The notes beneath the pieces are model-generated. The model was given only the letters and a program-made list of their open reading frames with translations. It did no database searches and was not told the origin of the DNA. This document shows, piece by piece, positions 12,384-57,269 of a stretch of 64,000 bases of DNA. This DNA is from Saururus chinensis (Eukaryota; Streptophyta; Magnoliopsida; Piperales; Saururaceae). Location: contig CP141148.1 of the NCBI GenBank assembly GCA_035235625.1, positions 26,165,057-26,229,056 of the forward strand, given 5' to 3'. The translations under genes and the position numbers were made by a program. The first letter of the stretch is position 1. The number at the start of each line of letters is the position of its first letter.

Positions 12384-12538
12384 CTCCCTCCGTCCCATAT
12401 TAATATTTCCATTTGGAAAAATAGTGATTTTTATTGAATGGTGGGACCTGTAGCTTAGAGGATAGAAAAGAAGCTTCTGGGACGATTTGTTAAGTACCCA
12501 ATCACTTAAATTGAGCTATTAATATGGGACGAAGGGAA
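12384..12538. mobile_element. Stowaway-type MITE (155 bp)
   Basis: The left end CTCCCTCCGTCCCATATTAA and the right end ATGGGACGAAGGGAA are imperfect inverted repeats of the standard Stowaway (Tc1/mariner) terminus, each flanked by TA (12382-12383 and 12539-12540). It has no coding capacity and lies between the microprotein model and the F-box gene, probably in an intron or the promoter of the latter. Confidence 0.85.
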
Positions 12539-22700: not shown

Positions 22701-24356
22701 TAGGGTCAATTTTTTTAGGAGTGATTTACCAAAATAGCCCTAAAATACAATGTAATACACAAAATGGTGCATATTTCTCTGTTATACAAATAATGGCCCT
22801 GTGCACATGTGAAACTCCACATGTGACAAAAATTGTCTCAAATACCTCTTTCCTATTTTCTTACTTTTAACTTTACCAACCCACTGTTTCCCTTTGTCAA
22901 CAACTTCGGCTTCAACTCCACCATCTCTGCCACCAACTCCAACACCTTTGCCAACGACTACACTAGTTCCGATTCATCCGCCTTCATTTTCACCTCCTCC
23001 TCCACTGTCTTTTCCTCCTCCCCTCCTCTACGACAACTACCACTTCCTCCTCCTGCCCTCCCCTCACATTCCTCCTTCTCCTCCTCCCCTCCTTTCTATC
23101 CTCTACCCCTTTTCTTCTTTTTTTGCATTCTCTTGCTCCTTCCCAAAATTTGACAAGATTCGTCACAAACTAGCTGAGAGAGCTATTAATTTTTTTTTCT
23201 CTACAAGCTCAAATCTTAAAAAATGAACTAATAAACATGTTAAAGTACTTAAAACAAAGAGTGGGTTTTATTTTTACTTGATTTTGAGTTTTTTCTATTG
23301 TTAAACCAAACCTTATAATGATAGTTGATAGTCAATAGTTGACAAGAAAATTCACTGCAATAAAGGTGACATAAGGCAACATTTTGAGTGGTAGTATCTC
23401 CCTCCGTATTTACAATGAACTATCTCAACAAACCGAATAGATAAATAAAAAATAAAATATATTTTAAACACACGGCTATTAACTGTCTCAACTATCGACT
23501 GTCACACATTAATAAAAGGTTGCTAGCGCCAAAGAAAAAGGTTGTCTCCGGTACCAGATGATATGACAATCGACAATCGGGACAATCGACAATTGAGACG
23601 ATTGACAATCAAATGTTTAAAATTTTCTTTATTTTTCTATTCAATTATTTGGTTTATTGAGATACTTCATTGTAAATACTGAGTGCGATATTGCCACTCA
23701 GAATATCGTCTTATGTCCCCTTTACTATAGTAAATCTACTTGTCAGCTGTTAGTATGATCTTTGGGTTAGCTTTAGAAAAGGTTAGAATCAAGTATAACC
23801 TAAACCCATTCTTTGTTTGAAGTAGATAACATGTTTATGGGTTCTTTTTCAAGATTTGAGCATATAGAGGTAAAAAAACTAATTTTTCATAGCTCCATTG
23901 GCTAGTTTGCAACCACTTTTGTTAAATTTTAAAAGGAACAAGAGGAGCCAACCGAGGAGGAAAATGGGAAAAGGAGAGGAAAGAGGGAAAAAGGAGGGAA
24001 GAAGGAGGAAGGGGAGGAGGAGGAGGCAACAGTGGAGGAGAAGGTGAAAACGAAGGTGTATGAAGCAAAGTTGGTAGTGGATACAACAAAATTGGTAGTG
24101 GAGTCGATGGCAGAGGTAGTAGAGCTAGTACCAGATGTGGTGGAGTTGAAGCCAATGCTACTGGCAAAGGGAAGCAATGGGTTGAAGATAAAAGAAAGAA
24201 TATAAGAAAGAAGTATTTTAGATAATTCCTACCATATGTGTGGAAGTTTACATATGAACTAAGTCATTTTTTATATTACACAAAAATATGTGACATTTTT
24301 TGTATTATAGGTGTATTCTAGGCTGATTTTGGCAAATCGTTGATTTTTAGACCCTA
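22701..24356. mobile_element. Foldback (long-TIR) element, about 0.8-kb arms, about 60-bp loop
   Basis: Almost the whole 1.65-kb segment is an inverted repeat. The left arm (22701 to about 23510) and right arm (about 23568-24356) align in the same order: AGGGTC end, GATTT(A/G)CCAAAAT, TACACA/TGTGTA, TTGGCTTCAACTCCACCA-like, a CCTCCTCC tract, CTCAAATCTT, AACATGTTA, AAACAAAGA(G/A)TGGGTTT, GTATTTACAATGAA and GACTGTC. The loop is about 23511-23567. Open frames in the arms encode only Ser/Thr/Pro-rich low-complexity sequence and no transposase. The long TIRs suggest a Mutator-like or foldback class, which is inference. Confidence 0.75.
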
Positions 24357-24752: not shown

Positions 24753-26897
24753 TCATCCCAAGTTCTGATCCCCACCATCCTGCTCTTTCTTCAAATCTGC
24801 AGGTGGGAGAAAGCACTCCATGGACAAGCCCCATATGTTGAAATCCACCTCTTCAATCTCCCATGTCTCCACCATCTTCCTCTTGTGGTTGGCTGAACCC
24901 TCCCCATACCTGAACAATGTGACCAGTGTCTTGCCACTATGTGCAATGTTGATGCCATCAATGTACCTGTAATCCTCAATCACAGACTCCATGCTTGTCT
25001 CCCAAAAGACACTGTCATCACCCTTGGACTTCATCCTCAACAAATGTGAATCCTCAAACTGGATCAAGAGCCCAGTTCTTTGGCTGAAGTAACCCCACAG
25101 GGTGTGGTGAATGATCTCAAAGGAGTTGCTGCTTCTTGCTTTCAATGTGGCAGGGCTTGCCTCCAGTTTGAGAATGAAGCAGTCCTCATTGTTTATGATC
25201 TTCTCGCCTATGCATACAGCATCCGAAAATAAGTTGGCTGTAGACCTGGGGTCCAGACCCTGTTGATGAACCAACTCAGTACTAGTGTAAGTTACAACGT
25301 CCAAATTCCAAGTTTTTGCTCGGTAAATCCAACACCATTTTCCTTTTTTTATGTGCTCGATCGGTAAATTCTACACTATGTTTCAAATGTGATTTGATAG
25401 ATTTTTACTTGGGAATCAATATAGTTAATCATTCATTAATCATGCAGTCATGTTATTTTGAGTCACCATGACTTTTTAACTAGCTTGTTCTATAGTTTGA
25501 GTTTAGTTAGTGAGTGCAGTGTAAAAGAGCGACGAAGATGAAGTACCTGTAATGACCGGCGTAGGGGCCGGGGAGGGCCCTTGGAGGCGTGGGACTGCTG
25601 GGAGGCGAATTGCCGCCACGCCACCTTGCCGTCGGCTCCGGCACTCACCTTGCAGCCGGAGACGACCAGCTCCAAGTACCAGAGATCCGGGTTCTTCTGC
25701 CACAGAACAAATCCCCCCACCTCCCCATTGCCTCTCAAGTTCACACTCTCATCGCCCATATGGAATTCTGATGCACTCATCCTCACCTTGCCGATGGCAT
25801 ACATGCTGTTGACTGAGTTCAATGCGGCCTGGCCTCCTGTTGCTGCAATGTACTGCTGAACTATGTATTTCGCCGTTGAGGCTTCCTGCAAGTCATGATT
25901 GCCATGTCTTCATCAGATGATAAAGAAAGTTGGTTTAATACTTGAATTGAATAATGTTTGTCTTTTAGACGTCTCTGCATATTGATTATATAAGAATTAT
26001 CTTAATTGACAAAAATCACATATTTTGACTCAACAATCATTGACACAATGAACAATGCAAAGTATATGTTCTCTTGGAAAAGTTTACGGTGATGATCAAA
26101 TTGGTGATGATGATAATGACTAACAATAATAAAACTAAAAATAACACTAAAAAAATAATTAGTAAAAAGTTCGTATGAGCCTAAGCTTACATAGATCCAA
26201 TGGTAGAAACTAATTAAGTTATGTGCATCCTCGAATTTTGATCCAACAACGTATGATGCTCCCAGACTCAGGCCATCACGCATGAGCCTGGACACGTATA
26301 AACGGGTTCTAAATAATTAAACTAATGATAATAACCACAAGTAAGATTTAGATCGTGTAATAAGAAAGAATATAATTTAGATAAATGAAATTTAGTTGAA
26401 ATCATGCCATTTTTAATTCTGTGGATCGGATATGTTTATTAATCTTCGAATTTCCCCTATATATATATCTGAATATAAGGGATTCGGCCGAGTGGTTTGT
26501 TTCTAAATAAATAGATTAAGGATTATCGCCCATGCATGCATGCCCATGCAAATCAACGTGGACGTGATTGCATTTACGTATCTCCATTGATCATGTAGTG
26601 CAAGGGTCTTACGATGGAGATGTCCTTGATGGGGCGGGCGACAGCCTGGCCGGTCTGGATGGGCAGTGGGACAAGCGGGGAGCCGACGACGTTGAGGAGG
26701 AGCTGGAGCTCGGCGTTGCGGCCGGCGTGCACCGGGGAGGCCTTGTCGGCGCCCTGGCACTTCATGAGCATCAGCATGTTCTGCCACCGCAGCGCCGGGT
26801 TGCTCCCCAAGCTCGCGAACATCTCCTCCGGGATGGGCACCTCCAGCACCGTCTCGAGGCCGTCCTCCCGGTCGAAGTTGGGGCACAGCTTCTTCAT
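24753..26897 (-). CDS. DUF620 family protein (three exons, 376 aa)
   Basis: Exons on the minus strand are 26613-26897, 25547-25885 and 24753-25259, with phase-0 junctions (ATC|GTAAGA, TTGCAG|GAA, CAG|GTACTT, CAACAG|GGT). Exon 1 gives the family start MKKLCPNFDREDGLETVLEV and EEMFASLGSNPALRWQNM. Exon 2 gives EASTAKYIVQQYIAATGGQ, LWQKNPDLWYLELVVSGCKV and GPPRPLRRSLQ. Exon 3 gives GLDPRSTANLFSDA, CFILKLEASP, WGYFSQRTGLLIQFEDSHLL, VFWETSMESV, INIAHSGKTLVTLFRYGEG and, near the end, FLPPADLK. These blocks span the whole DUF620 domain in order. Molecular function of the family is not known to me. The first two exons are GC-rich and the last is not. An in-frame extension upstream of the chosen ATG lies in leader DNA that is duplicated elsewhere without it, so I reject it. 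The gene looks intact. Confidence 0.88.
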
Positions 26898-27160
26898 GCG
26901 AGCTCCAATTCCGACCAAGCTGGGGCAGCTAATAGACGGTAATGAACAAGGAAAAGGTGCAGAGAGTAGGGTGGTGGGAGGGGAAGGGATGGACGGAGGG
27001 GAGAGGGGGGGAAGGTTGAGGCCTTCAAGCTCTGCGTTTCTGGATTTCCTTCCATCAGTTTTTGAGAGTGAGGAAGCGGAGGGAGGCCAGCCAGACAAGG
27101 GAGGAGAAGGGTGGGGCTGTCCTTCATTGTAGGGGAGGCCGGGGCACAGGGGCTGGGCCG
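26898..27160 (-). promoter_or_regulatory. 5' UTR of the DUF620 gene, pyrimidine-rich on the sense strand
   Basis: Between the ATG (26897) and the TATA box lies about 260 bp that is CT-rich in gene sense, especially opposite 26975-27010. The portion from about 27011 to 27175 is repeated at 33729-33901. No other gene is apparent; plus-strand frames here are shadows. Confidence 0.5.
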
Positions 27161-27176
27161 GTAGTTTTGGAGTTCT

Positions 27177-27186: not shown

Positions 27187-27599
27187 CTAAAAATATTAAA
27201 AAACTGGAAAAGTTTTTTAATAATCCCTCCGTCGTATATTAATAGCTTTAATAGAAAAAAAAATTTCGTTCTATATTAATTGCTTCATTTCCAACAACTT
27301 AAGCCTTAAGTGGGTCTATGATACTTCTCACTCGAGCTCCGGTTAAAATAACGATACAGGCAATCAAAACATGCGACTAAAAATTAATGCAGAGCCTTAA
27401 AACGCTTCCATCGCGTGGAGGGATGAGCCGTAAATGGTAATCGCCATGTCCAAAGTGAACAAGCTTCCCCTCCCCTTCACCCATCATCCCCTCTAAGGCG
27501 AACGAGCAGAGTGAAGGCGGCCACCCATCCAATCCCGGCCTGACAAGAAGAGCAACCCTGGTTGATATCGAAGCCATCAAGGTCATAGGTGTAAGCCTC

Positions 27600-27766
27600 A
27601 GCAATGGTGGATTGATTCCACCCTGCTAGATCGTGTGGCCCATCACCATCCTCTTCACTCTCGGCACCGCTGCCAGCGCCTCCTCCAGAGCCACGCAGTC
27701 GCACCGCCACTCAGACTCCTCCGAGAACAGCCGCAGCCACACCACCGAGTCCCTCCCCCACACGAA
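27600..27766 (-). pseudogene. Shewanella-like protein phosphatase fragment
   Basis: Immediately after SCGFT of the ADH fragment, in the same frame, comes FVWGRDSVVWLR, then CDCVALEEALAAVPRVKRMV and MGHTI, as in the C-terminal half of plant Shewanella-like (SLP) metallophosphatases (xxGHTxxxGIN metal-ligand region). The next codon is TAG where CAG is expected, and reading resumes as QGGIN. The fragment is a joined exon piece without the first metal-binding half. Homology beyond about 27605 is unclear. Confidence 0.6.
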
Positions 27767-28064
27767 GGTGAAGCCGCACGAGAGGAGGCTTGCATGGTGC
27801 AGGTCTATGGCTGGATCAATCTTGAGGACGTAGTTGACGTTCACCACAGTGTACTCAGGTTGAGCAGGTGAAGAAGTGGTACAGCTTCTGGCCGCGGGCG
27901 GACATTCTGGAGGTGCCATCTTCCATGAGGCCGGTCCGCGGACTTGGGTGTTTGAGGCACAAGTTGGTGCTTCCCGACAAGCAGTTTTCACACGTTCTGC
28001 ACTCTCCGATGTAGGTTGGGATCACAATGTCACCTTCTTTCAATTCAGTGACTCCTTCTCCCAC
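27767..28064 (-). pseudogene. Alcohol dehydrogenase-like fragment
   Basis: The minus strand reads [20 protein letters not shown], then [20 protein letters not shown] (the four structural-zinc cysteines of zinc-dependent ADH), [12 protein letters not shown], and, after a frame change near 27860, [16 protein letters not shown]...HHASLLSCGFT. These blocks resemble the plant ADH-like (non-ADH1) group. It is short by both ends: no N-terminal catalytic zinc region and no NAD-binding domain. Just upstream the phrase EVHIL is duplicated in tandem. Confidence 0.75.
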
Positions 28065-28139
28065 GAGGATATGGACCTCGTCGTTGATCCGCAAGATATG
28101 GACCTCCTCGTTCATCCGCTCCAGCCCGTAACCCCTCAT

Positions 28140-28560
28140 GGAACTCCAACTTCCCCAGCCAAACGAGCTCCTCATACTCTAGCTTCCCCAGCAGAACACG
28201 AGTGGGAGCATCAACATCGTCAATGACGACAATCAATGGCATCGAGCTGACCGTTTCCGTGATTAACCACTTGAGGGCCTCCTTGGCCACTGGGACATAC
28301 TCATAGTCCACAAACATTCTTGGCATGCATCCGGGTGTTGAGCACCGCCCCGGCCATTGGCCCAGGGAAGTGCATCTTGTAGAGGGCCGTCACATTCAGT
28401 GCAAGCACGGAGACTTCATCTGGGACATGGTTAGGAACCATCGGGCCCAAGCCTGGAACTCCGCAGCCCCCGTTGACAAGAATAGTTGTATACGTCCGCC
28501 TTGATTGTGGTAGCCGAGAACAGGGAAAGGTTAGGGGCGAGAGAGGCAGCAAAGGACCGG
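28140..28560 (-). pseudogene. Acyl-activating enzyme (AMP-binding) N-terminal fragment
   Basis: Minus-strand reading gives RRTYTT, then DEVSVLALNVTALYKMHFPG and PMAGAVLNTRMHA, then in another frame FVDYEYVPVAKEALKWL and MPLIVVIDDVDAPT...[10 protein letters not shown]. These are the early blocks of plant acyl-activating enzymes (AAE1/AAE7-type, peroxisomal or cytosolic acyl-CoA synthetases). A stretch expected between LNT and FVDYE is deleted, with a frame change at about 28310. The ATP-binding and catalytic parts are absent. Non-functional by this evidence. Confidence 0.65.
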
Positions 28561-28800
28561 AGGAGGAAGGTTACTAGATCTGGGTTCTGGTCGAAGCTAA
28601 TGAGGTTGGCGAATAAGACGAGGAAGGAAGAATTGTTCCACTCCCGACCGGCTCTTGATGCATGGGTTGGTGCTCGTGTATTTTTGAAAACTACGCGTCG
28701 TCATATTATTATTCTATTATTCTAAGACGCAGAAGAGAGTTCCTTAATAAAAATAACAAAAAGTTAGAAATGGAGCTATTAAATTAGGACGGAGGGAGTA

Positions 28801-29429
28801 TTATATATAACATACAAACTTTATTTTATATAAAATAATAACATTTATTAATATATAAAATAGAACTCTATCTGATAATGAGCCCGTAATGTATACATAG
28901 GACCCGTTTATCCATAAGATCACGACGTATATGCTAGCATGTAAAAATAAGATCATGACGTATATACACCTTAGATCTAAAATATCTACATTTTCCATAC
29001 TTTACAATAGGTTAAAAACTATTCCTTCGAGCTGGCAATCTTCCAGTCTTTTCCATTTACTATTTGCACCGAAATGGCAAAACCCTTCTTCCTCTTTCTA
29101 TCAATGTATTGGGTTAGCTAGTCTAGTCGGCAACAAATTTCGTACCAAAAGACCTTTTGGGCTCTCCTCTTCGCCGTCAATTTATATAAAATTTTATATA
29201 AATTTTTTTATATAAAACATGAGATACAAAAAATTTTCCAATATTAAAAAACTGGAAAAGCTCCTCCACATATGAGGAAGATGGTAAAGATGTGCGGTCA
29301 GCTGTGTAGCATCCATTGGAGGAGGACCGCGGACATGTCAATTTATATAAAAAATTTTATATAAATGCATATCATTTATATAAAAAAATTTATATAAAAA
29401 AATTTATATAAGATAGTGCAAATAGTAAA
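28801..29429. other. AT-rich spacer with repeats of TTTATATAAA words
   Basis: No gene. AAATAGAACTCTATCTGATA at 28859-28878 is present inverted at about 31666-31685, and TTTATATAAAAAAATTTATA strings at 29340-29410 recur near 31275-31335. These outer similarities suggest that the hairpin element at 29430-31252 lies inside a larger inverted arrangement. Confidence 0.4.
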
Positions 29430-31252
29430 GGGAAAATTATTTAAATAATAATTAAAAATAAAATATTTACTAATTTAGATTATTTTGGGAAATATTTCTC
29501 AAAGTAGTGTTGGTTTTGGCCACGTAGGCGCCAGCCAAGCGCTAGCACTTGCGTGGCTTTTTTTACAAAAATTTAGTTGATTTCATCGTTTAGAATGGCA
29601 AAATCAAGTTTAAGTTGATTTCGTCATTCTAAACGACGAAATTATTTAAAAAAAATTAAGTAATTTCGTGCTTTAGAAGGACGAAATTATGTTAAATTAA
29701 TTTCGTCCTTCTAAATGACGAAATCAACATGAATTTTTTTTAAAAAAAAATAAAATTACGGGAGGGATGAATTAAAGCTTTTTTTATTGCTGGAGGGACG
29801 AATAAAAAAATTTAATAATTTTTTTAAAAAATTTTATTTTTTTAAAATAATATTATATATATATATATAATATTTTATATTTATATTTGGGTCGGGTTGG
29901 GTCAGGTTGGATCACTAAAACCCGAACCCAACCCATTAGAGTTATTTTTAAAAATCAAACCAAACCTATTAAAGTCGGGTCGGATTTACCATTTACCAAA
30001 CCCGAGAGTGGCATCCTTGTTACTATACTTAAATTTCGTGTCATTTCGTCGTTTAAAACGACCAAATCGCCATCAACCCATTTTCAGCCCTTTGTACAGT
30101 AAAAAGCTGACACTGCACAGTAAAAATCATTGACTAAACTCTATACAGTAAAAAACACTCGTAGAAAGAACTCAATAAAAAAATCAACACAAGCACTTTA
30201 CACAGTAAAAAGTACTCAGTAACAGTAGAAAGCACTCTATACGTAAACACACTCATAGAAAGAACTCAATAAAAAAAATCAACACTCTCTCTGCACGTCA
30301 AAAATCAGCACTCTCTGTGTCAAACAGTAAAAAATTAAAATACATATAAAAATAACGTAAATAAAAAATAAAAAATATACTACTATAGTATAGGTGCAAA
30401 TAATCATGATAAAAAATATAAAAATACATACAATAATAACGTAATTAAAAAATAAAATACAAAAATAAATACAAAAATAACGTAATTAAAAAGTAAATAT
30501 ATGTCAACATAACTGGAGGGGTCAACATAACTACAGTTATATACTACTTAATTTTTTTAAATCCTCCATATTCACCCTCCTATTCCTGCCTACTTCAACT
30601 GAAATTTAAGTATGGTGCTCAAGATGCTTAGTATATTAAGCACCTAGGATTTTTTTATTTAGTATGGTTTAAGTGAACGATTGCCTAAGTGACGAATTAA
30701 AGCTTCTTTTATGCTTAATAGATTTAAGTGAACGGTTAGGTTTTTAAAAATAACCCTAATGGGTCGGGTTCGGGTTCGGGTTTTAGTGATCCAACCCGAC
30801 CCGACCCGAATATAAATATAAAATTTATATTATATATATAATATTATTTTTTTTTAAAATAAAATTTTTTAAAAAATTTATTAAAAAAATTTTATTCGTC
30901 CCTCCCGTAATAAAAGAAGCTTTAATTCGTCCCTCCTGTAATTTTATTTTTTTAAAAAAAAAATTCATGTTGATTTCGAAATCAACTTAACATGATTTCG
31001 TCCTTTTAAAGGACGAAATCACTTAATTTTTTTAAACAATTTCGTCATTTAGAACAACGAAATCAACTTAAACTTGATTTCATCATTCTAAACGACGAAA
31101 TCAACTAAATTTTTTTTAAAAAAAGCCACGCAGGCACCAGCGCTTGGCTGACGCTTACGTAGCCCAAACCAACACCACTTTGAAAAATATTTCCCACAGT
31201 GGTCTAAATTGGTAAATATTTTATTTTTAATTATTATTTAAATAATTTTCTC
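29430..31252. mobile_element. Long-TIR hairpin element with palindrome-rich arms
   Basis: The left arm (29430 to about 29956) and right arm (about 30738-31252) are inverted copies. Both start GGGAAAATTATT or GAGAAAATTATT and continue through TGGTTT...ACGTA(G/A)GCG, GCGTGGC, a series of TTTCGTC...GACGAAA palindromes, ACGGGAGGGA, a T/A tract and GGGTCGGGTT to TTATTTTTAAAAA. The centre (about 29957-30737) is A-rich, with at least seven CAGTAAAAA-like repeats and ACGTAA(A/T)TAAAAA words. No transposase. The GGGAAAATT ends resemble Mutator-like elements (inference). Confidence 0.7.
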
Positions 31253-31589
31253 AATATTAAATGCCCAAAAGGTCAATTTATATAAAAAAATTTATATAAA
31301 AATTTTTTATATATTAAATTTATATAAAAAATTTAAGCACCTGATCCATCAATTTCTCACTGGCTATCAAAATGCATATCATGTCTTTTACTAAATCAAA
31401 TCATTAATAATAAAATACTTCTGGACAAATAAAGTAAGAATCTACATTAAATAACACTGTATACAAAGTTCGAATAGTAAATAGTTGCACATGTTAGTTC
31501 CCCCAAACTTTCATTTTCAACTATAGCCTACAGTCAGTGTTGCTGACAAGTACGGACTACTGAAAGCCACGAAGTAAAAAAACCTTTTG

Positions 31590-31800
31590 GGCACAGAGGT
31601 TGGGCCTTGAAAAGCTGCAGTTTTAGAGCTCTATTTTATATACTAAAAATATTAAAAAACTCATTATCAGATAGAGTTCTATTTTATATAAGATAGAGTT
31701 CTATTTTATATACTAATAAGTGTTCCATTCCACAGAATCGGATATTAATTCCGATTCTATTTTATATACTAAAAATATTAAAAAATATACTAAAAATTTT
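31590..31800 (+). repeat. Copy of the DUF620 TATA/leader segment and multiplied TATA motif
   Basis: GGGCACAGAGGTTGGGC...GCAGTTTTAGAGCTCTATTT parallels 27143-27181, and the following TATATACTAAAAATATTAAA matches 27181-27200. The TTCTATTTTATATA motif is then repeated at about 31675, 31698 and 31755. No coding part of DUF620 is included. Confidence 0.65.
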
Positions 31801-33688: not shown

Positions 33689-33943
33689 GGGGAAGACAAT
33701 TGCCCCTTGTAACTACCCAAACGAGTAGAGGAAGGTTGAGGCCTTCAAGCTCTGCGTTTCTTGATTTTCTTTTATCAGTTTTTGAGAGTAAGGAAGCGGA
33801 GAGAAGCCAGCTAGACGAGGGAGGAGAAGGGTGGGGCTGTCCTTCATTGTAGGGGAGGCTGGGGCACAGGGTGGGGCATTGAAGAGCGGCAGTTTTGGAG
33901 TTCCCCTACTAGTTTAGGTAGTTGTAAGGGGCAGTTATCTTCC
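33689..33943 (+). mobile_element. 255-bp TIR element carrying a copy of the DUF620 leader
   Basis: About 40-bp inverted repeats, GGAAGACAATTGCCCCTTGT...CGAGTAG at the left and its imperfect inverse CTAGTTTAGGTAGTTGTAAG...TCTTCC at the right, enclose 33729-33901. That interior matches 27011-27175, the transcribed leader upstream of the DUF620 start, with about a dozen visible substitutions. The small open frame at 33628-33852 is only a consequence of this copy. Confidence 0.7.
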
Positions 33944-39370: not shown

Positions 39371-42239
39371 TAGGAAAAATTAGAGCAATAGCAACAACAA
39401 TTATCAGAAGAAATTCAGATTGCCAAACATTTAATTAGCTCCACCAACTAAATTTCAATCAGTGACAAAAGTCATTAGCGTGAACACACGATCAGTTGAT
39501 AGATAGTACTGACAAAAGTAGTAAAATAAATGTACATTTTCCATGTGATTGATTACCTGCGAAAGGGCGGGATTGGCAGGTAACTTCCAACCCCTCCGCT
39601 AGGCATCCCTGCACCAGCCTGCTAGCATTAAGCTTGTTCATCACTTCCATTGCCCTTGTCCAATCCTAAAATAATTAAGTTGGTCCAGTTTTCATGGTTT
39701 TTGAATCCTAGGTGGACGTCCACCTAGTGTTTCATGTCTCTACTATCTGCCGCTTTGTTATCTTTCTCTGCCTGTGTTTTATAGCGGGGGATTTGCCATC
39801 GCTCTCTTTCGTTTTTCTTGATATTCCCGTATTCAGAGAGATCTACAAAGATCATGATCGCGCGAGGCTTATCTTCAGAGGTAAAAAGGATCGATCATGA
39901 GGCCGACTCCGGCCGGGGATGAGAATCAAACCGCCATCCGCCGATGAAGCAGGGATTTGCAAGGCATGCGACGTGTGGGGGAAATCCCAATTAACATCCT
40001 CCCTTGTCGATTAGAATTTTTGCTTTTTCGATCTCGCGGCTTCCTAGAACAGAGGAGACTTTCGGCTAAAGGCACTCAGGCAGCCATTTCATCTCCAAGT
40101 TGCTTCTATTAACAGGTCTTTCTATCCTCCTGTGATTTTTATTTCTTTCTTTCAGAAATGTTCCATGAACTGCTTCTTGGTAAAGGATCTGGTGTTAAGA
40201 TTTTTTTTTAGAAAAATGAAAATAATAATTGAAAAGGTCTATGAACTGCAAGTTGGTGAGTGTTTTGAAATGAGAAAATTAAATATAGAAGGTCTATCAA
40301 CTGCATGTTAGTGTGTTTGTTTTTAATCAGTTTAAGGGTCTAGACCAATAGCCATCAATCAGTGGCAGACCAAAAAAATGTCCCTTGGAGTAAGTTCAGT
40401 CCTTGGAGCTATAGTTCTTAAAAATATCTCTTACAAAATCAGTGTCAGTTCTTACTTGAAAATACAGTTTTAGTTTTAGTTGCACTTTATAGCTGACTCT
40501 TTCAGTGTGGAGTCCTTTTTGTTTAATTGACAACTTTATTTGTGAAAAGAATGTGTTATTGAACTGCAAATGTGTCCTTTTTTTGTTTTTTGCGTAATCT
40601 GTTTACTTGAATCAGAGTACTTACATTACAATCCCTTAGCATATAAGCTCTCCCTACCAAATTAGTAGTTCACATTTGAAAAAAAATGATATACAAGAAA
40701 GCCAATTAATTAACTTTTTTACTCCATTCATGACTAATGACTATTAGAATGATAACATGAAATAAGACTATTAATATGTGATAGATTTTTTTTGTCAAAT
40801 AAGTCTATCAAAATAAGATGGAAGAAGTATATTATCTGATAAATGCCCTCAGACCCAAATTCTTTCCATATTTTGCTCTTAAAATTGGATCAATTGGCAG
40901 CAAGTCAACTTCAACAAATGAAAATTTAATTTAATATAAAGTAATGGAATTCTCTTTCTAGCTAAAATTGAAAACCAATAAAGAAATGAATGGTAGAGCT
41001 TGATTGTTCATACTTGAGGTCGGCAGAATAGATGGGCAACGATGTTAAGGAACATATAAATATTATCTGAGACCCTAATCAACTCACTAAGCTTAATTAT
41101 TTGATAACGTCCATTAGTTGGCAACATAATCCATGCTCAAAGATGATAATGGGAAAATAAATCACATTAAGCATTTTTTTTGTACTAATGAAGTCGAGTA
41201 ATTAGGTTTACCTTTTTTTAGATAAACAAACATTGTCCGAATTAGGTTTACTTGTCAATTTAATACAATAATATTGTACATAATCATCTTACATCCATAG
41301 GTCATTTACCTGTTTCAATTCTTTGTTCCTTTGGTGTATGTGGTTTTCTAAAATATGACCTTTGTAACCATAATTTAAAATACTTTTAAAGAATGTCTTC
41401 AGGCCCCACGTTCAGATTTGGGGAAAGAACCCTCGAACCTTTGTTTATTTATAAGTCTATTAGTAAGATTATTGACCTCTTCCTTGGTGCTTCTTAGCAA
41501 CGATTCCACCTCATCAGTAGCACGGTGGTCAAGATATTTAAGTGCAAATTAAAATAAGGTATCCACCATTTTTAGAGAAAACTTTCTTGACAAGCAAGAA
41601 TGCAAGAAGAGAAGATGAGTAGCTTTATAAAAAGCTTGAAGGGCTTGATCTAACTAATTCCATTAACTTGCTTCATCCACCAGCACTAGTTTTTTTGTTG
41701 TTGTACGAGTTGTCGATCCCGGCTTGCCAAGCTTGAATGCACATGACTCGAGGCCCATTTGGCCTGTTTTCCACCTTACTGAATTCTATTCCTGTGAGTC
41801 CTACTGTTACCATATGTTTACCATTTTGTTTGTCTAGCTATTAGGTAACTCAAAAAATATACTCTTTTTTCTTCTAATTACTTTATCTAGTGCCTCCTTT
41901 CTTACAATTTATAGGTAGTTTCTTAATACTAAATGTATGTTCGATATTTTTCAACTTATACTTGGCCCTATCAGTAGAACTGGGGGTTCTCTATCTTAAA
42001 TTGATCCATCAAAAGAGCTTCTACTTCTAAAATTTATGGTCTTGTAGGTAAGAAATGATAATAACTCATATAACAATATTTTCTACTATTTTTCAAATAT
42101 AATGAGTAAGTCTCTTCATGACATGAAGGATAGGCTAGCTTCTTTTTGTGCTCCAACCCGATAGCATCGCATACCTTAAGAAGTTATGTATAGTCCACAG
42201 AACAACTGCATTCATTTGAAATATCTCTTTCTTCAATAA
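39371..42239. other. Intergenic DNA, possible orphan leader exon, no supported gene
   Basis: A GC-normal block at about 39700-40116 ends in AACAG|GTCTTTC and could be a 5' exon of an unidentified plus-strand transcript. The minus strand at about 39550-39610 has an exon-like piece (GMPSGGVGSYLPIPPF with GT/AG flanks). The rest, 40.1-42.2 kb, is AT-rich and featureless. Confidence 0.3.
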
Positions 42240-42700
42240 ATCATATGTCTCTACACCAACATCTTATAATTTTTTTAATTCTTCTATCAACGACGTAAGA
42301 AATATGTCAATCTTATTACGAGGGTCATTTGGGTTGAGCAATGATAACATAAAATTTGGTTGTTTCGTGCATAACAATGGAGGTAAGTTGTAAGGAACTA
42401 GATTAATAGGTCATGTGCTATATGATAGAGATAATGTCCTAAATGGGTTGAAGTCATCACTACTTAACTAAGTCTAACATTATGAGGCCATGAAGTAAAT
42501 GCATGATAGATAAAATCAAGTTATTTCCATGTAAGGGAATCAACTGGGTGTCTTGGGATTTGGCCTCTCTTATGCTTCTTGTCATGCCATCACATAACAC
42601 TGCAATTTTGGATGACATGTACAATCTCTGCAGCCTTGGCTTTTGGGGGAAATGACAAAGAACCTTTGCTTAGATCTTCCTTTTAATACCATAATTTATA
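42240..42700 (-). pseudogene. CACTA (En/Spm, TNP2-type) transposase relic, minus strand
   Basis: The reverse complement parallels 43125-43560 on the plus strand: AGATTGTACATGTCATCCAA, then TCATGG-type GPVMLGL, GFNPFKT and YNLPP-type blocks, as in TNP2 transposases. Many substitutions and stops. It faces away from the plus-strand relic. Confidence 0.6.
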
Positions 42701-42859
42701 TAGATAAAGGAAGTGTAATACCTTATGTTTTGATTACACCTAAACTAAAGGGTTAGGGGTAATTATATACTTTTTAGTTAAATTTTAAGGGGTTTCAAGA
42801 AATGGAGTCCTAGTAGAAGAGGTTGGAATTGAAGTGTACAACACTCACAAAGTTATCTT

Positions 42860-43930
42860 TTGTTCTTAGACGATGACATGTTAAATGTTGAGGTACATGG
42901 AATAACAAGTCAGTCACTATATTATTTAACTTGTTATATGAACTACATTCAAAAGATAATAACTTACCTAAGACATTTGAACAATGTAAGAAAATTATAT
43001 CAATGTTGGGACTTGAGCATTACAAGATTCATGTATGTCTAAACAATTATATGTTGTATTGGAAAGACACAGCTGACCAAAAGATATGTCAGACCTCGTT
43101 GGATGACTACAGAAGGTGATGAAGATGGTACTAAAGGGAAGATCTCAGCAAAGATTCTTTGTCATTTCCTCGTAAATCCAAGGTTACAAAGATTGTATAT
43201 GTCATCCAAAATTACAAGTGCCATGTGATGACATGACGAGAAGTGTAAGATAAACCGGATCCTAAGACACCTAGCTGATCTCCAACATTGAAATAACTTG
43301 ATTTTATCTATCCTATATTCACTTCATGGTCCTGTAATGTTAGGCTTGGGTTAACTAGTGATGGCTTTAACCCATTTAAGACATTGTCTCTTTTAGATAG
43401 CATATGACCTATAAATCTAGTTTCTTACAACTTACCTCCATTGTTATGTATGAAACAACCAAACTTTATGTTATCATTGCTCATCCCAAATGGCCCTCGT
43501 AATATAATTGACATATTTCTTACATTGATTGAAGAATTAAAGAAATTATAGGATGTTAGTGTGGAGACATATGATTCATTGAAGAAAAAGATATTTAAAA
43601 TGCATGCAATTATTTTATGGACTATAAGTAACTTCCTAAGGTACACGTTGATGTCAGGTTGGAGCATAAAAAGAAAACTAGCATGTCTCTCATGTCATGT
43701 AGAGACTTACTCATTATATTTGAAAAATAGTAGAAAATATTGTTATATGGGCTGTCGTCGTTTCTTACCTAGAGACTATAAATTTTGGAAGCAGAAGCAC
43801 TCTTTTGATGGATCAATTGAAGATAGAAAAACCCTAGTTCTATTGACAGGGTCAAGTATATTGCATAAGTTGAAAAATATTGAACATATATTTTGTATTG
43901 AGAAATTACCTATGTGCATCTCAATTTAGT
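42860..43930 (+). pseudogene. CACTA (En/Spm, TNP2-type) transposase relic, plus strand
   Basis: Readable blocks in several frames: LPKTFEQCKKIISMLGLEHY, KIHVCLNNYMLYWKD, ISAKILCHF...PRLQRLYMSSK, HGPVMLGL and GFNPFKTL, YNLPPLLCMKQPNFMLSLLI, then LMSGWSIKRKLACLSCHVET, NSRKYCYMGCRRFLPRDYKF and KHSFDG. This order matches the CACTA TNP2-like transposase. Frameshifts and stops separate the blocks, so the copy is dead. Confidence 0.75.
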
Positions 43931-46999: not shown

Positions 47000-48081
47000 G
47001 GCCATGGTGAGGCCACCTCCCTAGTGTCACCCTGGTGAGCCCCGCCGCCCTCCAGCCAGCTCTGCATTGGTTTGCCTCTTCCCCCTCTCTCTATGTTTTG
47101 TAATTTGTGGCTGCTGCCGCCATGGGATGGCAAGGGCTGGCTGGCCGCCCACGGCTCTGCCCCGGCCCCATAATGGCGGTGGGCCACCCTTCCCAGCCAG
47201 ATTAGCATTCCCCTCTTCACCTTCGTTTCTCCCTTTGGTCCCTTATTTTTTGCCCAAACCATCCCCTCTCTATTTTGCTGTTTTGGGACTTCGCCCTGGC
47301 CCAATGATGGCTAGGGCCAGCCCCACCAGGCTTGGCTCCACTGTTCTGGCTTCCCCTATTTATTCTCAGCCCCACCTCTCTCTTTGGCCCAAACTAGATG
47401 TGCCTTCCCCCATTTTTTTTTGCGACAAAAACTTGAGATCGCTCAAATGAGAGCATGCCTCCTGTCAGCCAACATTGGGTTGGTGATAGTGGGATCGCCG
47501 CCTAAGCCTAGCTCCTTTGCCCCTAACCATTTGTTGGTCCTTTTCACCTCCAGCAGAGTCATATTTTCCTTTTTCCCTATGTGTTCTCAATTTGCTCGGG
47601 TGAGCCACGGCTGGCCAATGGCTGCCAGCCTCCAGCTGGCCTCTGGCCAACCAATCTCGACTCGATGACATTGGTGCAATCGCCCTACCTCAGCTCTGCT
47701 GCTACAACTCCATCCCCTCCTGTTTCCACCTTGGTGTTGTGGCATTTATGACCACTACCATCGGCAAGACTCAGCCAATCAGACCTCCGTTCAGCTCCTT
47801 CCCAGCCCATCGATGACAAGTCTGCCACCAACGACTAGCCCTAGCTCCGCCCTCGATCGTGTTAGATGCATAGCCATCAGCATCAATTATTTTGGTTGTG
47901 GGTGGCGATTAACAATGTTGCCATCTCCGCTAGCCACTACTAGGGCCTTAGCTTTGTCACCCTTTTAGGCCTTGGGCTACCATTGTCTAGCCCCTCTCCC
48001 CCTTGAGTGGTCTTCTTTGCCTTGTGTGCATGTAGCCAAGCATGCGATTTAAGGTTTAGGTGCCACTTTGCCCCGCCTAAC
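47000..48081 (+). mobile_element. Degraded family-1 LTR, left part
   Basis: GC-rich sequence with phrases shared, in the same order, with 54000-54640 of the solo LTR at 53414-58052: GGTTGTGGGTGGCGAT, GGCCTTGGGC(T/C)ACCA, GTGCATGTAG/GTGCATGTGG. Open frames on both strands (for example 47067-47450) come from GC richness. It continues, after the inserted family-2 LTR, at 51602. Confidence 0.55.
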
Positions 48082-51000
48082 TGTCACGACCCAGATTTTT
48101 AAAATTATTTTTTTAAATAGCACGAATGGTAAGTAGTGAGAATTTTTTTTTCTTTAAATACAAAACAAACCATTCGATTAAATATCCAGGTCATGATAAT
48201 TGGGGTTCACAAATACGAATATCAAATCATATGATATTATTTAATGTCTAAAAATTCATAAAGACCAGCTCATCCATCTAAGTACAAGTCTGTCACCCGT
48301 CTAAAAATAAATAACAAGTTGACTCTCACGCTAAAGGTACACTTACATACCGGAGTTGCAGAAATGCAAAATCTTCTTCTTGTGCTCGCTGTCTTAGTCT
48401 CACTTATCGTCGCCTGGATAATTTGCACCCAACTAAACGAAGCAACCACAACAACAACAATGGAATCTCTCCACCTTCATGAGAAAAGCTTCCAAAAGAC
48501 AAAAGGTTTTATTAATATTTTTCGGATTGGGACAACATCACCCGATGTTAGTTGTCTACGTACTCATCTGACAACATCTCCAATGTTTCCAACAAGATCA
48601 GATCCAAACGTAGTTCTGCCTAATGCTACACTATACTAAGAAGCATAGCATCACACATTCAATGCTTAACTATTTTCAAGCAACCTACATTTTATGCAAG
48701 TCCTTTAATTGCTCCACTTGTTCTAATTAAACAAGCAATATCAAACAATGTTATTAATTATCTCTCGAACCATTGTTTGATAATTAATATCCTTGTCTAA
48801 TCCTAATGACAGACAGACTCATCAGATGTCAACCTAAGTGACAAATGACAACGAAACACCCTGGAATCTACCAGGCCCCTGGAATCCACCAGGAAGTGCC
48901 ATCTCCCAACCTAGCTCATAAGGACCTGACCGGAGTGGAAGGGCATGACCCACAACTGCACTTGAATAAAAGTGGTCAGAGACGCCAACCAAGCAGGATG
49001 TCAGCGACCCTAAATGCGTGTACACTAAAAGATCCTCAATCGATCTGTGGTGAGCTCGGCTCACAAGGAACTCCCTCCAATGGGGAGGTGCAACTACATG
49101 GTCAAATCAGCGGCTCCTCAATAGAGCTAAAACTCAAGAAACCATTCTGAACCCTACCTTGCTCATCTATAAGCCAGGATTCCGAATGACTATCCCAAAC
49201 CTTATTAGTCCCTTCTAGACTAAGGTTTACAACTCGAGACATGTCATCGGTTCATCAACCAAGGCAAATCGTTAGGTCAAAGGCTTTGTTCACTGTATGA
49301 ACTAGTCCCAGACCCCTCAGAGGTATCTTAGTTTTTACCTTGATTAGGTGTTCTCCCCACAATCCAATAATCAATATCTCTTGATTAGTCTTTATTAACC
49401 TTACGATACTGATACAAATTAACGCATCAATAACAAAAGCATGCAGTAGATTTAGCAACATAAAGAACATGCAAACATACAAGTGCATAAATAATAACAA
49501 AGGCCCATTGCACTCATTTGCAAGGCTAGGGCTCAGTGAATTCAAGCCCGAAACGCTTCCCGCGAGTTACATATATAACACTCTAGTCGATCGATGTACT
49601 CGATTGTAGACACGTGTAACACGCTGCCTTAAACCTTGAGAATTATGGTTCTTCCCCTTGTTTCCCATGACACTATGACCTGTCAAGGTCTTCATGTCTT
49701 TTACTGGTCACACCCCTTCCTTTTGAAGCCATTTAATGTCATTCTAAGTCACCCTAACGCTTGGTTGCTAGGTTATCCGTTTTAGCAAAAACAGAACAAA
49801 CTACCCCCTAAGGGCATTAGAGTAATTCCACCACTTGGGGTATGCTACCCTCCCCTATGTCATTTGGTCATATCACTACCCTTTTAATTATTTTGAGTCA
49901 TAATCCTCTCAGAAGGCTCCACTTTCAAACTGACCCACGCTTCTATTCACACGAATGTGGGCGGATCCACTCAAAGGGGTATTTTTATCATTTGGTTTAA
50001 AGCCTTAATGACATCCAATGGGTCCAAAATTAAACTCAAGGGTACTACTTGACTTCATGGACCCTATGTAATTTTCCTGACATGTGAGGGGTCGTGAACC
50101 TCTTGAACTAACCCAGGTTGTCTTAACGGTTTATGATAAATACTAAGGGCAAAATAGTCAATTAACTATTCACTGGGCTTTTTCCTCGCTATGAGATTTG
50201 GCCTATAATTAATTTACTTATTAAACTCTCACTGAGAATTTTCTAAATTTTTAACCCAACTCATAGGCCCCTGAACCAGAGCCCCGAAGTCGGGTAAATG
50301 GTTTTCACAAGATGATTGAACTACCAGGGGTAAAAAGGTCATTTTATAGTCATTGGGATTTTTCCCAAGTCTGAAACTTTGGTAGGGCACTCTTCATACA
50401 CCCATGGTAATTTATTATTTTTTTTAAAATTTTCTGACAACTCTAGCTTACTGAACCAGACCCGGTTTGTAGAGTATATATAAATATTTATTTTTATTAG
50501 ACCGGACCGAATCAGGTCGGGTCACCCGACACGGTCCAGAGCGCACAGATGACCCACATCGCAGGTCATCTTCCCCATGACCGGCCAGAGACCGTTCAGC
50601 TTCTGGCAGTGCCAACCTTCCCCCAGGCATCCTGGTGGGCGAGGCAGGAGCCGGTCGGATCGCCGCCTTCAGGTGATTCCGATGAACTCGGCCTTGCCTC
50701 CGTCCAGCGGATGGCCGGGGACAAAGCGGCCATTTTTTTTTAATAGACGGTGATGCCGCCGCAGCCGGAGCCAGCGTGGCCCAGGCCGGTGCATCCGGGG
50801 CCATCGTGGCTTGGACCGGCATGGCCGGGACTAGCGCGGCCACGGCCAGCATGGCCTCGGCCAATGCGGCCAGCGACTGTGTCTCTCTTTCTTTCTTTTT
50901 TCTCTATGCACTGACAAGCGGTCCATCCGACAGTGGCTACGTACCGAAGCCCAGCCTGCATGAAGCTGCAGCCAGATGACGGCTGGCCAGACGGTGCTGA

Positions 51001-51601
51001 CCGATCTGCAGCCGGCCAAGAAAATCTATTGTTGAATGGTACAGTTGAACGGGATTACAGTACACCGATTATTGTTTATGTAAATTACACTATTCAAATC
51101 TAATTAATCAAACTTTTATTCATCTTCAAGCGAAGACAAGGCAATGATCCTACCTTAATTGTCGATCCACTGCCATCGAAGCCTTGCCAGAGCTTCGCCG
51201 TTTACCCCATTCTCTCCTCCGATCGGACAAAGACCCCCAAATTATGCCCTAAGAAGGCCTTTTACAAGCAAAAGGATTAGGAATCCTAACCCCTCTAGAA
51301 TTTTGGTAATCCTCCCCAATTAGGCCACCTTATTTAGACCTTAAAAATTAATTTTGGAATTATAAACAACCGGGCCCGCAAAACGACTTAAATGGACCAA
51401 ATAAAGTCTAAATCGGGTAAACGGGTCCTGCACGATATGTTCAACTTCATACGGTCGTATCTCCCTCATCCGGACTCTGATTCACGCGTTCTTGGTGGCG
51501 TTTCGAAGCTCTTTCTGTCTATTTTTCATTCATATATATTTCAGATACAAATTCTAAGCATTTATTAAGTTATTCTAATAAGAAGATCAAGGGATCCAAC
51601 A
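48082..51601 (+). mobile_element. Family-2 LTR copy A, 3' end truncated
   Basis: The segment starts TGTCACGACCC and parallels copy C (59485-63302) through GGGGTTCACAAATAC, AAATCATATGATATTAT, AGCTTCCAAAA, CAACATCTCC, TCACACGAATGTGG and CTCTTTCTGTCTA. It ends GGGATCCAACA at 51601, whereas copy C has a further 53 bp ending GACGTTACA, so the 3' tip is missing. No gag-pol sequence inside. A TATA-like TATATATAAAT sits at about 50476-50486. Frames at 50448-50979 are Ala/Gly-rich GC artefacts. Confidence 0.6.
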
Positions 51602-51990
51602 CCCTTGAGTGGTCTTCTTTACCTTGGTGCATGTAGCTGAGCATGTGATTTAAGGTTTAGGTGCCACTTTGCCCCACCTAACCATCGGCTAGCTCTGCCA
51701 TCGAATAAATTTGACCATCAGAGCCACCTCCTCTCTCCTTCGTCCTTGAGCATGGCCCCATGCCCTCCACCCCTTATGTGTAACATAGTTGATGTGAAAT
51801 CGCCATTGTTGGGCATTGTCCATGGCCGATATATGCATCTTACAGCCAACCGAGTACTTATTAGCCGTTGGCCAACTTCCATTTAGTCCACCCTTAGTTT
51901 CTAGTCACACTCGCCACTTCTTTGGCATGATCATTCTCCTGGCCACCCTAGTGAGTTGTCGTTAATGAAAATATCTTCGTAAAGATGATG
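51602..51990 (+). mobile_element. Degraded family-1 LTR, right part
   Basis: Starts by repeating 48000-48081 (CCCTTGAGTGGTCTTCTTT...) and continues in parallel with 54655-54920: GGCT(A/C)TGCCA(T/C)CGAAT-like, CATGCCCTCC, TTGGGC/TGGGTGCTGTCCA, CAAGTACTTCTCAGCC-like. Non-coding. Confidence 0.55.
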
Positions 51991-53413
51991 AGAAAGGGCT
52001 ACATACTTTGGTCGGCCTAGGCTAGTGTGAATCTCCCGTCCACTTGACATTAGGGAAAATGAATGAAAAAGAAAGAAAAAATAAATGATACAAATACACA
52101 GGTTTCGGAAAAAGTTAAGCCATTGAAAAATGATTTGAGGAAAAATATCATAACTAAGAAAAATGCATGAGCATATTCTATATTGAGGTTTGATCTTTTT
52201 AGAAGTGTATATTAATTCAAGGTTAAGTGAGTCAAAAAATGAGAATTATGTCTTTACGAGAGTCTAAGCAATTTTGTCACTTTTGAATAAGGACCTTGAG
52301 AAATTTATGAGTGAAAGAAACAAGAGTTAAACATTATTGGTTTCTTCAAAAATTAATAAAAGAGAGTTAAAATATTAAAAAGAAGAAATGAAGATTGAGA
52401 ATTTTAAAAAAAGGAGCATACTAATCTAAGGCAAGGTATAAATTACCATCATCTGTGGATATACTTAAATTAAGGGTTGAATTAATAAAATTTGACAAAA
52501 GAGCTCAACTTGTTTTTGATTTTATAAAGTCATTAAATTTCAGTCAATTTTGAGGTCGTTGCTTCTGTTAATTTTTGCATTAGGTTGCTAGATGAGCCTT
52601 AAATTCACATTGTCTTGTAGTTTTATGAATTTTTATTGGTCAAACCTTGTGTTCTACACATTCAAAAGTTTTGACTTGATTTGGAGTTTGGGAACTTAAA
52701 GATTTTTTAAATGAGATGTAGATTTTGACTGATTCTAACAATGTTATTTTTTCAAAACTTGATTTCAAACAACATTTAAACAATTGAGATAACTTTAAGA
52801 TTGTTGTTATCTAATTACACTTTGTTGATTTTGCAATTTTAGGGGTAGTTAATCTTACAACAAATTTTTGGATGTTTCTACATGTTGGTATATGTTTCTA
52901 GATTGTAATTGATTTTAGAATGTCTTGAATAAATAAGATAGAGACTATTGTACATAATGAGTTTAGTGAAGTAGAGTCTCTATTGTTGATTCAGTTGAAA
53001 TATGAATATTAGAATATGATGATTTTGATGTATCTTCAAATTAATGATTCTAATTAGATATTGACTTAATTGATTATATCTTTTTGTTTAAGAGTCATAT
53101 GGATATGATTCTTTTTAATTTGAATTTTTGATGTGAAATTTAACTATTCTTTTCTTAACATTGTTCTTTTCTTACCTTTGTCTATTTCTGTAAAAAAGGG
53201 GAGAATATGTGATTAATTTATTAAGTGCAGAGAAAATTTAATGGAAATCGAATGTCATATGTGACAATTACTTGAGCATTTAAATTCTTTATTTACTTAT
53301 TATTTGGAACAATATTATGGGAGTATGTTCTTATTTATGATGTGCATGATGATTACATATTGAAGATCATTATACCACATTATATATGAATGTCATAGAT
53401 TTAGGGGGAGACT
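51991..53413. other. AT-rich retroelement-like DNA ending in a polypurine tract
   Basis: No coding sequence was recognised. It ends TTTAGGGGGAGACT (53401-53413), like the polypurine tract before a 3' LTR of plant Ty1/copia elements. If the solo LTR 53414-58052 and one AGACT are removed, the tract is followed by CATTGTCAAAG, which could be the old element's own LTR start. Confidence 0.35.
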
Positions 53414-55289: not shown

Positions 55290-55560
55290 AGTATGTTGAT
55301 TGAGTATGTGCTAGTGATGGCTAGCGTGTATGTTTGAAGTATGTATGTATGTATGTATGTGCTAGTGATGGCTAGTGTGTATGCTTGAAGTATGTATGTA
55401 TATGCTAGTAATGGCTAGCGTGTTTGTTGGCAAGCTTAATATGTTGTTTGAGTATGTGCTAGTGATGGCTAGCGGGTTGTGGGTATGTTACATGTATGGA
55501 TGCGTATGTATGCTCTAGTGATGGCTAGTGAGTATGATAGTAAGCTATGTACGAAAGTAT
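55290..55560 (+). repeat. Irregular repeats of GTATGTGCTAGTGATGGCTAG
   Basis: The word TGCTAGTGATGGCTAG(C/T)G recurs at least five times, spaced by GTATGTATG-type sequence (about 55306, 55357, 55404, 55455, 55513). Confidence 0.7.
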
Positions 55561-56315
55561 GTGTATGTTATACGTAGGTATGATAGACATACGTATGTAT
55601 GATGGCTAATGGCCTATGCTATGGATATGTGTAAGTGTATGTGGGCAGAGGTATGGGCGATGGACAGTAATAGGTGACAGAGGTTTCATCTAGATGTGGA
55701 TATGGATGTGGATGCGTAAGCGTATGATAAAAGATGATGGATATGAGTTTGACGAGTGAGGATTGGATCAGATTGTTTGATTTGGATCAGAACGTATGAT
55801 TGGGGGATTGTCAAACAGTAAGAGTGTGCATAATTGTACAAGCATAACGTATAGATTATGAAGTGAAAAGTAAGCTCAATATGTGAGGTATAAGTAAAAG
55901 GGTGACAACTGGGTTTGGCTTTAAGGAGCTTAATTTGATTATGTTAGTGTAAGATGATTTAGCCATAAGGGTAGATGGCGGAGTATGTAAGACTGTAAGA
56001 TTTTGGTGTACGATGAGTTTGATCATGACATGGACATGTTAAGGAAGTCTGATGCCCTGACGAACTAGGGTTTCATATCGGGCTCAACTACGGTTTGATC
56101 AATGGAGCACGGTACGTTTGAGTGCTTTGTGGCATAATTGTACCGCATAATTTACTTAATTCAAACTTGAATTATAAGAGAGCTAATGATAGCGTTGTGA
56201 GTTTGAGACCTGAGGATTCGGCGGATTAAGTTCCATGTTTGAGCTAGCCGATAATGAGTCGACTGAGGATTTATCATGTCTTACCTTGGTGTTTATCCTG
56301 CAGGATGTTGTCTGT

Positions 56316-56492: not shown

Positions 56493-56567
56493 TGTATGAT
56501 TTCCGCCCAAGAGTGGCACTATATGTTTTTGCCCAAGTGGTATTGTATGATTCTGCCCAAGAGTGGC

Positions 56568-57190: not shown

Positions 57191-57269
57191 GTAAGTTGTA
57201 TGAGTATGCGTACGATGGTATGAGTAAGTTTGTAAGATCCTGGATAAGGGTGTTTGTGTAAGTTTAATT

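Follow-up and report, generated by a model that had tools for sequence, protein, structure and literature searches.

A probable Pack-Mariner of Saururus chinensis with Stowaway-type ends and cargo from several unrelated host genes

A single TA-flanked element of 1,576 bp, at positions 27223-28798 of the window (the term used here for the whole 64,000-nucleotide stretch of Saururus chinensis DNA analysed, C9:26165057-26229056, from a genome of 516 Mb in 11 contigs), has Stowaway-type ends and an interior drawn from at least six host sources. In genome coordinates it occupies C9:26192279-26193854. Very probably it is a non-autonomous Pack-Mariner of Tc1/mariner type, from a family whose short fixed ends hold changing cargo. 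A sequence-only reading had proposed that one element with ends of this type had captured several unrelated genes and, as the same ends recur in pairs around other cargo, that proposal holds. The observation is real and was understated; it is confirmed in part, and the interpretation put on it is likewise supported in part.

The element and its cargo

In the following list q is the element coordinate, i.e., window position minus 27222; loci are given by L number.

27221-27222, no strand: left TA target-site dinucleotide, read from the sequence; its position is the same across the family
27223-27359 (q1-137), plus: family left end, Stowaway TIR and subterminal region; profile match 109.8 bits
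27380-27564 (q158-342), plus: leader (5′ region) of gene X; two candidate sources
27565-27611 (q343-389), minus: GH18 chitinase remnant, 47 bp; homology to a fuller fragment in L013
27612-27766 (q390-544), minus: SLP phosphatase, C-terminal piece; 143/155 = 92.3% to L022
27767-28065 (q545-843), minus: ADH-like piece; match to C8:37.58 Mb (L010)
28066-28101 (q844-879), minus: 36 bp filler, most of one copy of an SLP tandem duplication of 27 bp period
28102-28130 (q880-908), minus: SLP middle piece; 28/29 to L022
28152-28420 (q930-1198), minus: AAE piece; 243/269 = 90.3% to L019
28412-28464 (q1190-1242), minus: SLP N-proximal piece; 49/53 to L022
28482-28504 (q1260-1282), minus: receptor-kinase-like remnant, AKADVYNY-like coding; longer in L013
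28506-28677 (q1284-1455), plus: DUF740-like fragment; 157/172 = 91.3% to L023
28678-28714, plus: 37 bp tail, common to L014, L015, L020 and L025, in L017 partly, not in L018
28715-28798 (q1493-1576), plus: family right end with Stowaway TIR; profile match 71.3 bits
28799-28800, no strand: right TA target-site dinucleotide, read from the sequence

That Stowaway-type ends and flanking TA enclose 1.58 kb is borne out by a terminal inverted repeat (TIR) of 30 bp, 87% complementary (27218-27247 / 28774-28803), by the TA on either side and by motif enrichment. With up to one mismatch CTCCCTCCGT..., which we take to be the Stowaway TIR motif and on which the naming of the ends is based, occurs 8 times in the window vs 0.98 expected, a number that none of 100 shuffles reached. 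Within the left end the TIR core is repeated (27230-27248 / 27267-27285). Composition measurement upholds the claim of a GC-rich interior, and the reported lack of a transposase agrees with the element ORFs scanned (the ORF list, with Pfam on 8 ORFs of the area), none of which encodes one.

The cargo had been described as fragments of three genes, AAE, ADH and SLP, joined in one orientation. Pieces of all three are indeed present and the search suggested for their parents found ORFs at other places in the genome that match them (at 90.3%, 95.4% and 92.3% of aligned bases, respectively), but the count fell short, the X leader, GH18 and DUF740-like pieces bringing the sources to at least six, with the receptor-kinase remnant perhaps a further one. 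The single orientation was wrong, because the X leader and DUF740-like piece are on the plus strand and oppose the remaining cargo pieces, which are on the minus strand.

For the X leader the candidate sources are C8:36.06 Mb (L021; 166/185 = 89.7%) and C1:57.02 Mb (L024; 124/133 = 93.2% over 27432-27564), and the GH18 fragment of L013 scores 7.7e-15 with Pfam GH18. SLP is present as three separate pieces, together with the tandem duplication (copies 28068-28092 / 28095-28119), and its candidate parent L022, at C3:43.22 Mb, is an ORF of 390 aa that looks intact (Metallophos 8.1e-8). At 0.001 the only PDB matches of that ORF are psychrophilic phosphatase chains, 1v73, 2z72 and 2zbm (best 3.6e-14), presumably of Shewanella origin. 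ADH_N was detected in one of the 8 ORFs of the element area (Pfam 3.7e-6); against its candidate parent L010, a single exon-like ORF, the ADH piece matches at 292/306 = 95.4% (27760-28065) with a 5 bp deletion. The AAE piece has deletions of 38 and 9 bp relative to L019, a 612 aa ORF at C11:3.25 Mb that also looks intact (AMP-binding 1.8e-82), and its final ~9 bp overlap SLP as microhomology (GACTTCATC / GACGACATC). Identification of the kinase remnant is based on an L013 ORF whose best PDB kinase match reaches only 0.0052, and ‘DUF740-like’ is so labelled because the DUF740 score of its candidate parent L023, at C2:41.62 Mb an ORF of 207 aa, is 0.0038 and under the Pfam cut-off.

Was the AAE piece acquired via RNA? 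An apparent 1 kb intron-like gap in the copies within the long-TIR elements described below was considered as a sign of a spliced copy and rejected: it lacks GT..AG, and its junction is the SLP/AAE join with its microhomology. The candidate parent consists of a single open ORF, and L014 remains homologous past the start side of that ORF (L019 4200-4531, the ORF ending at 4415), which points to acquisition at the DNA level.

The ADH and SLP pieces had been seen to meet in frame, and they do share one open frame of 131 aa (27629-28021, minus). As to its significance, a join is in frame 1 time in 3 by chance, the 5 bp deletion in the ADH piece shifts the frame upstream of the join, and the SLP part ends GHTI* where the parent reads GHTIQ, so that the in-frame join weighs little. 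The chimeric peptide that had been suggested may be possible from this frame, yet the frameshift and stop are signs of decay.

A family with paired ends

How widely do these ends occur? Genome searches gave at least 52 matches to the whole element (40 of 546 candidates scored), at least 43 to the left end, the window included (40 of 301), and at least 40 to the right end (40 of 236), the end-match counts being lower bounds because only part of the candidates were scored. The left-end matches elsewhere (at least 42) mostly stop near q106-113; a few are shorter and three extend to q137-140. Those examined, 37 of the 43 with six left out, are the window, four in L035 and 32 at other loci; with L013, L037, L038 and L039, which entered via other matches, the sample is 37 loci plus the window. 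End profiles were built from 10 elements in which BLAST had already matched both ends to those of the window element, and the scan, with cut-offs of at least 60 bits (left) and at least 25 bits (right), also took in gene loci and long-TIR loci. All 21 right-end matches at or above cut-off are in line with a left end, at a span of 0.8-2.2 kb; 10 of these 21 paired elements had built the profile and 11 had not (L038 and L039 being near copies of L037). The 38 left-end loci comprise the 21, a further 16 for which the 1.8-4.3 kb examined downstream contain no right end reaching 25 bits (L061, with a weak right end of 17 bits, is counted here), and L035. In the last (C6:25308360-25309095) at least four left ends stand in a tandem array, spaced 195-217 bp apart, without right ends. 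Two further pairs, at C8:19.83 Mb and C9:16.89 Mb, come from match coordinates alone.

Other copies with the same ends had been named as something to look for, and 20 more sampled elements share the window's pair, a left end of ~120 bp and a right end of ~85 bp. TA is present on both sides in 18 of the 21; the exceptions, L013 (CA on the right), L032 (right end doubtful) and L033 (right TIR degraded), are kept in the family counts despite their imperfect right side. None of the 21 complete elements is shorter than 800 bp.

It is between the ends that the family varies. Mean GC over the 21 elements is 51.2% (0.512) for interiors vs 35.7% (0.357) for flanks of up to 580 bp per side, and compared at 1e-5 the interiors form 15 unrelated groups, those with several members being the window with L013, L037 with L038 and L039, L045 with L059, L052 with L057, and L050 with L055; a 38 bp stretch beside the left end shared by L029 and L033 was set aside in the grouping. 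Pfam domains over cut-off were found in 4 of the 15: ADH_N (window) and GH18 (L013) in one, GH14 (L038), Cupin_1 (L047) and Pkinase (L050) in the others. The scans outside the window covered six, ten and ten element ORFs rather than all ORFs, with L037, L039 and L052 represented by group partners; 20 ORFs from 13 elements gave the kinase of L050, a weak sub-threshold LRR in L060 and otherwise nothing. Since domains are confined to those 4 groups, it is GC content that suggests a genic origin for the remaining interiors. L030 has a TPR stretch below the Pfam cut-off, with a phmmer match to stress-induced phosphoprotein 1 (1.6e-9) that ranks behind engineered TPR proteins; for L059, considered as a possible kinesin, a PDB search gave no match.

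The ORF of L038 matches chloroplastic beta-amylase 1 (1.3e-36), and this cargo is present as 8 full-length copies, 88-100% identical and on six contigs, with two partial copies on two other contigs. In all 8 the ends could be read, each with its own flank, and TA is on both sides in 7, the C7 copy having CA on the right. Packed elements therefore move as units. In L047 the germin-like cargo has a candidate source, by match, at C8:36604666-36605355 (94% over 690 bp) and is joined, with a 3 bp overlap, to a piece of a second locus (best C1:58.36 Mb, 83%); the joined cargo recurs, again by match, at C3:43.18 Mb (88%). The kinase piece of L050 has candidate sources by match at C6:36.50 Mb (87%) and C8:0.38 Mb (85%); its further pieces match C1:14.04 Mb at 91%, and one lies in the opposite orientation to that locus and to other copies. 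C1:11.97 Mb is likely to hold a second copy of this cargo.

The ends could instead be those of two separate Stowaway insertions that flank an older duplicated region, with no single element involved. AT repeats and local duplications abound around the insertion, and the genome search found no empty site; on the other side, left-type and right-type ends pair in 20 other elements, a left end stands in line with every right end over cut-off, L013 and the window element have both ends and two cargo pieces in common, and the beta-amylase element reached its 8 sites as one unit. At the family level two insertions are refuted, and for the window element itself they are exceedingly improbable. Nearly as hard to sustain is the proposition that the element is a functional chimeric gene, or a regulatory unit for the adjacent DUF620 gene. 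It does lie upstream of the DUF620 exons, 326 bp from the likely start codon, and the 131 aa frame is open; the frameshift, the stop and the deletions relative to the ADH, SLP and AAE parents make a functional role very unlikely. A single packed element, decaying after its captures, is the reading followed below.

Order of captures

Three related elements, L013, L009 and that of the window, appear to preserve successive stages. L013 is 2,162 bp long and carries, between its two ends, X, a long piece of GH18, a piece resembling a kinase and DUF740; SLP, AAE and ADH matches are absent from it at 1e-4. L009 has the left end, X, a GH18 remnant, SLP and AAE without ADH, its right end not being found within 4.3 kb. 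There SLP is unbroken across the position at which ADH interrupts it in the window (88.7% to the gene over 230 bp), and the SLP matches of L014 and L018 also cross that site, over 121 and 120 bp. In the window element 335 bp, made up of 299 of ADH plus the 36 bp filler, take the place of 46 bp of SLP (L022 2934-2979), and ADH is the least diverged of the longer pieces, at 95.4% vs 90-93%. Because SLP is unbroken in relatives and ADH is least diverged, ADH is, by comparison of these copies, the youngest capture, gained within an existing element; the order would be L013, then the SLP-AAE of L009, then the window with ADH inside SLP. The breakpoints of the newest capture can be read inside an older captured gene, and with staged relatives to hand, models of fusion and of repair are therefore distinguishable from sequence.

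A cassette shared with long-TIR elements

Part of the cargo, DUF740-SLP-AAE-SLP, also occurs at five places without Stowaway ends (L014, L015, L016/17, L018 and L020). Inverted ends of ~280-390 bp are present in L015 (81%), L018 (83%) and L020 (77%), and L014 and L016/17 are grouped with them by homology; no clear target-site duplication was readable at the ends. A 1 bp deletion in AAE is common to all five copies; neither the window nor L009 nor either of two AAE genes has it. L015, L017 and L020 carry a shortened version of the window's kinase-SLP junction, the fuller kinase-DUF740 junction being found in the Stowaway-ended L013. Plain identity points the other way: the window's DUF740 piece is 88.2-90.7% identical to the long-TIR copies vs 87.1% to L013, and its AAE piece 90.4-92.3% vs 89.1% to L009. 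The 37 bp tail was tried as proof of transfer from Stowaway-type to long-TIR elements and dropped, shuffle tests being weak and a control stretch scoring equally.

Between L016 4352 and L017 1961 (C11:28.88-28.89 Mb) there is a 407 bp direct repeat, 98% identical, which suggests an LTR retrotransposon nested inside the long-TIR element. In the window itself an element with ~600 bp inverted ends (82%) lies at 29355-31329, and 29433-29725 within those ends is 77% like the long TIR of L015.

Repair, fusion or transfer?

A mariner transposase acting in trans would move family elements in cut-and-paste fashion; repair of a break within one of them might copy genic DNA from unlinked places, switching templates, and so add cargo, as when 335 bp were substituted for 46 bp of SLP, and the captured copies would decay through deletion and frameshift. 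We infer repair from the breakpoints, and gap filling with template switching, argued for animal Pack-TIRs in the accessible text of Tan et al. 2021 (PMC8277862), would fit the ADH step better than fusion of two neighbouring elements with the DNA between them. Fusion is the published model for Pack-TYPE elements (Catoni; Gisby & Catoni, PMC8903248, as far as the accessible text goes), in L013 another TIR-like stretch lies inward of the outer left end, and the first captures could be accounted for in this way. However, ADH sits, with 46 bp replaced, in an SLP that runs on without a break in L009, L014 and L018 as in the gene; no family end sequence is present at the edges of the ADH piece; its source cluster is on C8 and the window element on C9; and SLP-AAE occupies, between the same ends, the place that GH18 has in L013. 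Fusion is thus an unlikely source of the cargo in general, and for the ADH step the position within SLP, the edges and the source on another contig favour repair. Could the cassette have arisen in a long-TIR element, perhaps a Mutator-like one, and been taken up from there by a Stowaway-ended element? Its presence in the five copies, three with long inverted ends, the closer plain identity of the DUF740 and AAE pieces and the tail common to L014, L015, L020 and L025 speak for this; the shared 1 bp deletion, the shortened junctions and the membership of the window's ends in a family holding much other cargo speak against it, and we think it improbable. Judged by the junctions, the simplest reading would be that the cassette was assembled between Stowaway ends and entered the long-TIR family afterwards; as plain identity points elsewhere, this has about an even chance. 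More tentative, and on balance doubtful, is a wider scheme of a mariner-type cargo shuttle, with ends seldom or never free of cargo, uptake by break repair, and a cassette passed to, and multiplied in, the long-TIR family. If true, scraps of genes circulate between transposon superfamilies.

Relation to known systems

Stowaway MITEs are short and AT-rich; the present family shares their CTCCCTCCGT... TIR and TA sites but its elements are 0.8-2.2 kb with GC-rich interiors. Pack-MULEs carry multiple gene fragments and GC-rich cargo, and the resemblance in several unrelated gene fragments and in GC-rich cargo is clear; however, Mutator hallmarks are long TIRs and a ~9 bp target site, and here the TIR is ~30 bp and the target site TA. 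Helitrons lack TIRs, insert between A and T and have a 3′ hairpin, whereas the window element has TIRs and paired TA.

Capture of several genes by Tc1/mariner-type ends had been thought unusual. It has precedents, however: rice and maize have published Pack-Mariners whose TIRs are of Stowaway type (Gisby & Catoni 2022, PMC8903248), and the accessible text gives 642 annotated Mariner elements in rice, with 19% of rice Pack-Mariners carrying more than one locus. The element is therefore of an already known kind, and the likeness, to the extent of that text, covers Stowaway-type TIRs, TA sites, no transposase, host coding DNA, sometimes from several loci, and low copy number. In the window element Stowaway TIRs, TA sites, host coding DNA with candidate parents, no transposase in the ORFs scanned and related elements were all found. 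The worked example in the accessible part of PMC8903248 has one piece of ~260-280 bp, the Saururus elements being 0.8-2.2 kb in total, and, beyond what that part describes, the staged relatives here indicate capture inside an existing element. Animal Pack-TIRs (gap filling / FoSTeST; PMC8277862, accessible text) are alike in microhomology at joins, internal breakpoints and amplification of some packed elements, and unlike in that the present case is from a plant, mariner-type and with many loci per element. A literature search found ‘Pack-Mariner’, among the papers covered, only in PMC8903248 and ‘Pack-Stowaway’, ‘Pack-MITE’ and ‘Pack-Tc1’ in none of them; nor were there, among the papers listed, reports of staged captures, missing short members or a cassette shared across transposon types. 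Subscription journals are mostly outside its scope, so that it is weak evidence that staged captures, a sampled family without short members and a cassette shared with another type of transposon are new relative to published Pack-Mariners. A 2026 review (PMC13317346, in its accessible part) considers that an alternative route for DNA-transposon uptake of unlinked genes may remain undiscovered. The family also has cargo multiplied through transposition, as in the 8 beta-amylase copies, and cargo common to another type of transposon.

Candidate partners, empty sites and other features of the window

DUF7769, which we take to be part of plant mariner transposases, was found at 8 loci in the genome, and the family ends are absent within about 1.5 kb of the 6 of these examined. 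At C11:21.96 Mb (L064 346-1773, minus) a transposase-like ORF of 476 aa has DUF7769 (7.2e-14) and a sub-threshold Tc3-type HTH; the family ends are absent nearby. When the joined flanks of the window element were searched in the genome no convincing empty site emerged. There were seven non-self matches, among which C5:22098623 alone spans the join, and it was rejected since 6 of 300 random window stretches score equally high; window 31619-31785 was discarded as a rearranged local duplicate of the flank, part of the stretch 31580-31785 in which the element's flanks recur in rearranged form.

The neighbouring DUF620 gene (PF04788) lies at 24753-26935 (minus), as two ORFs of 1e-36 and 3.2e-81, and probably starts at 26897, which leaves 326 bp to the element; its leader, 27010-27175, is duplicated 6.7 kb off at 33730-33903 (88%). 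Elsewhere in the window are a short Stowaway-type inverted-repeat element of ~155 bp (12384-12537), a 1.6 kb near-palindrome (22723-24338, 69% to its own reverse complement), an inverted repeat of ~790 bp, 84% identical (41911-43913), and, at 48080-62124, several direct repeats of 0.8-1.25 kb and 70-76% identity, perhaps a tandem gene cluster.
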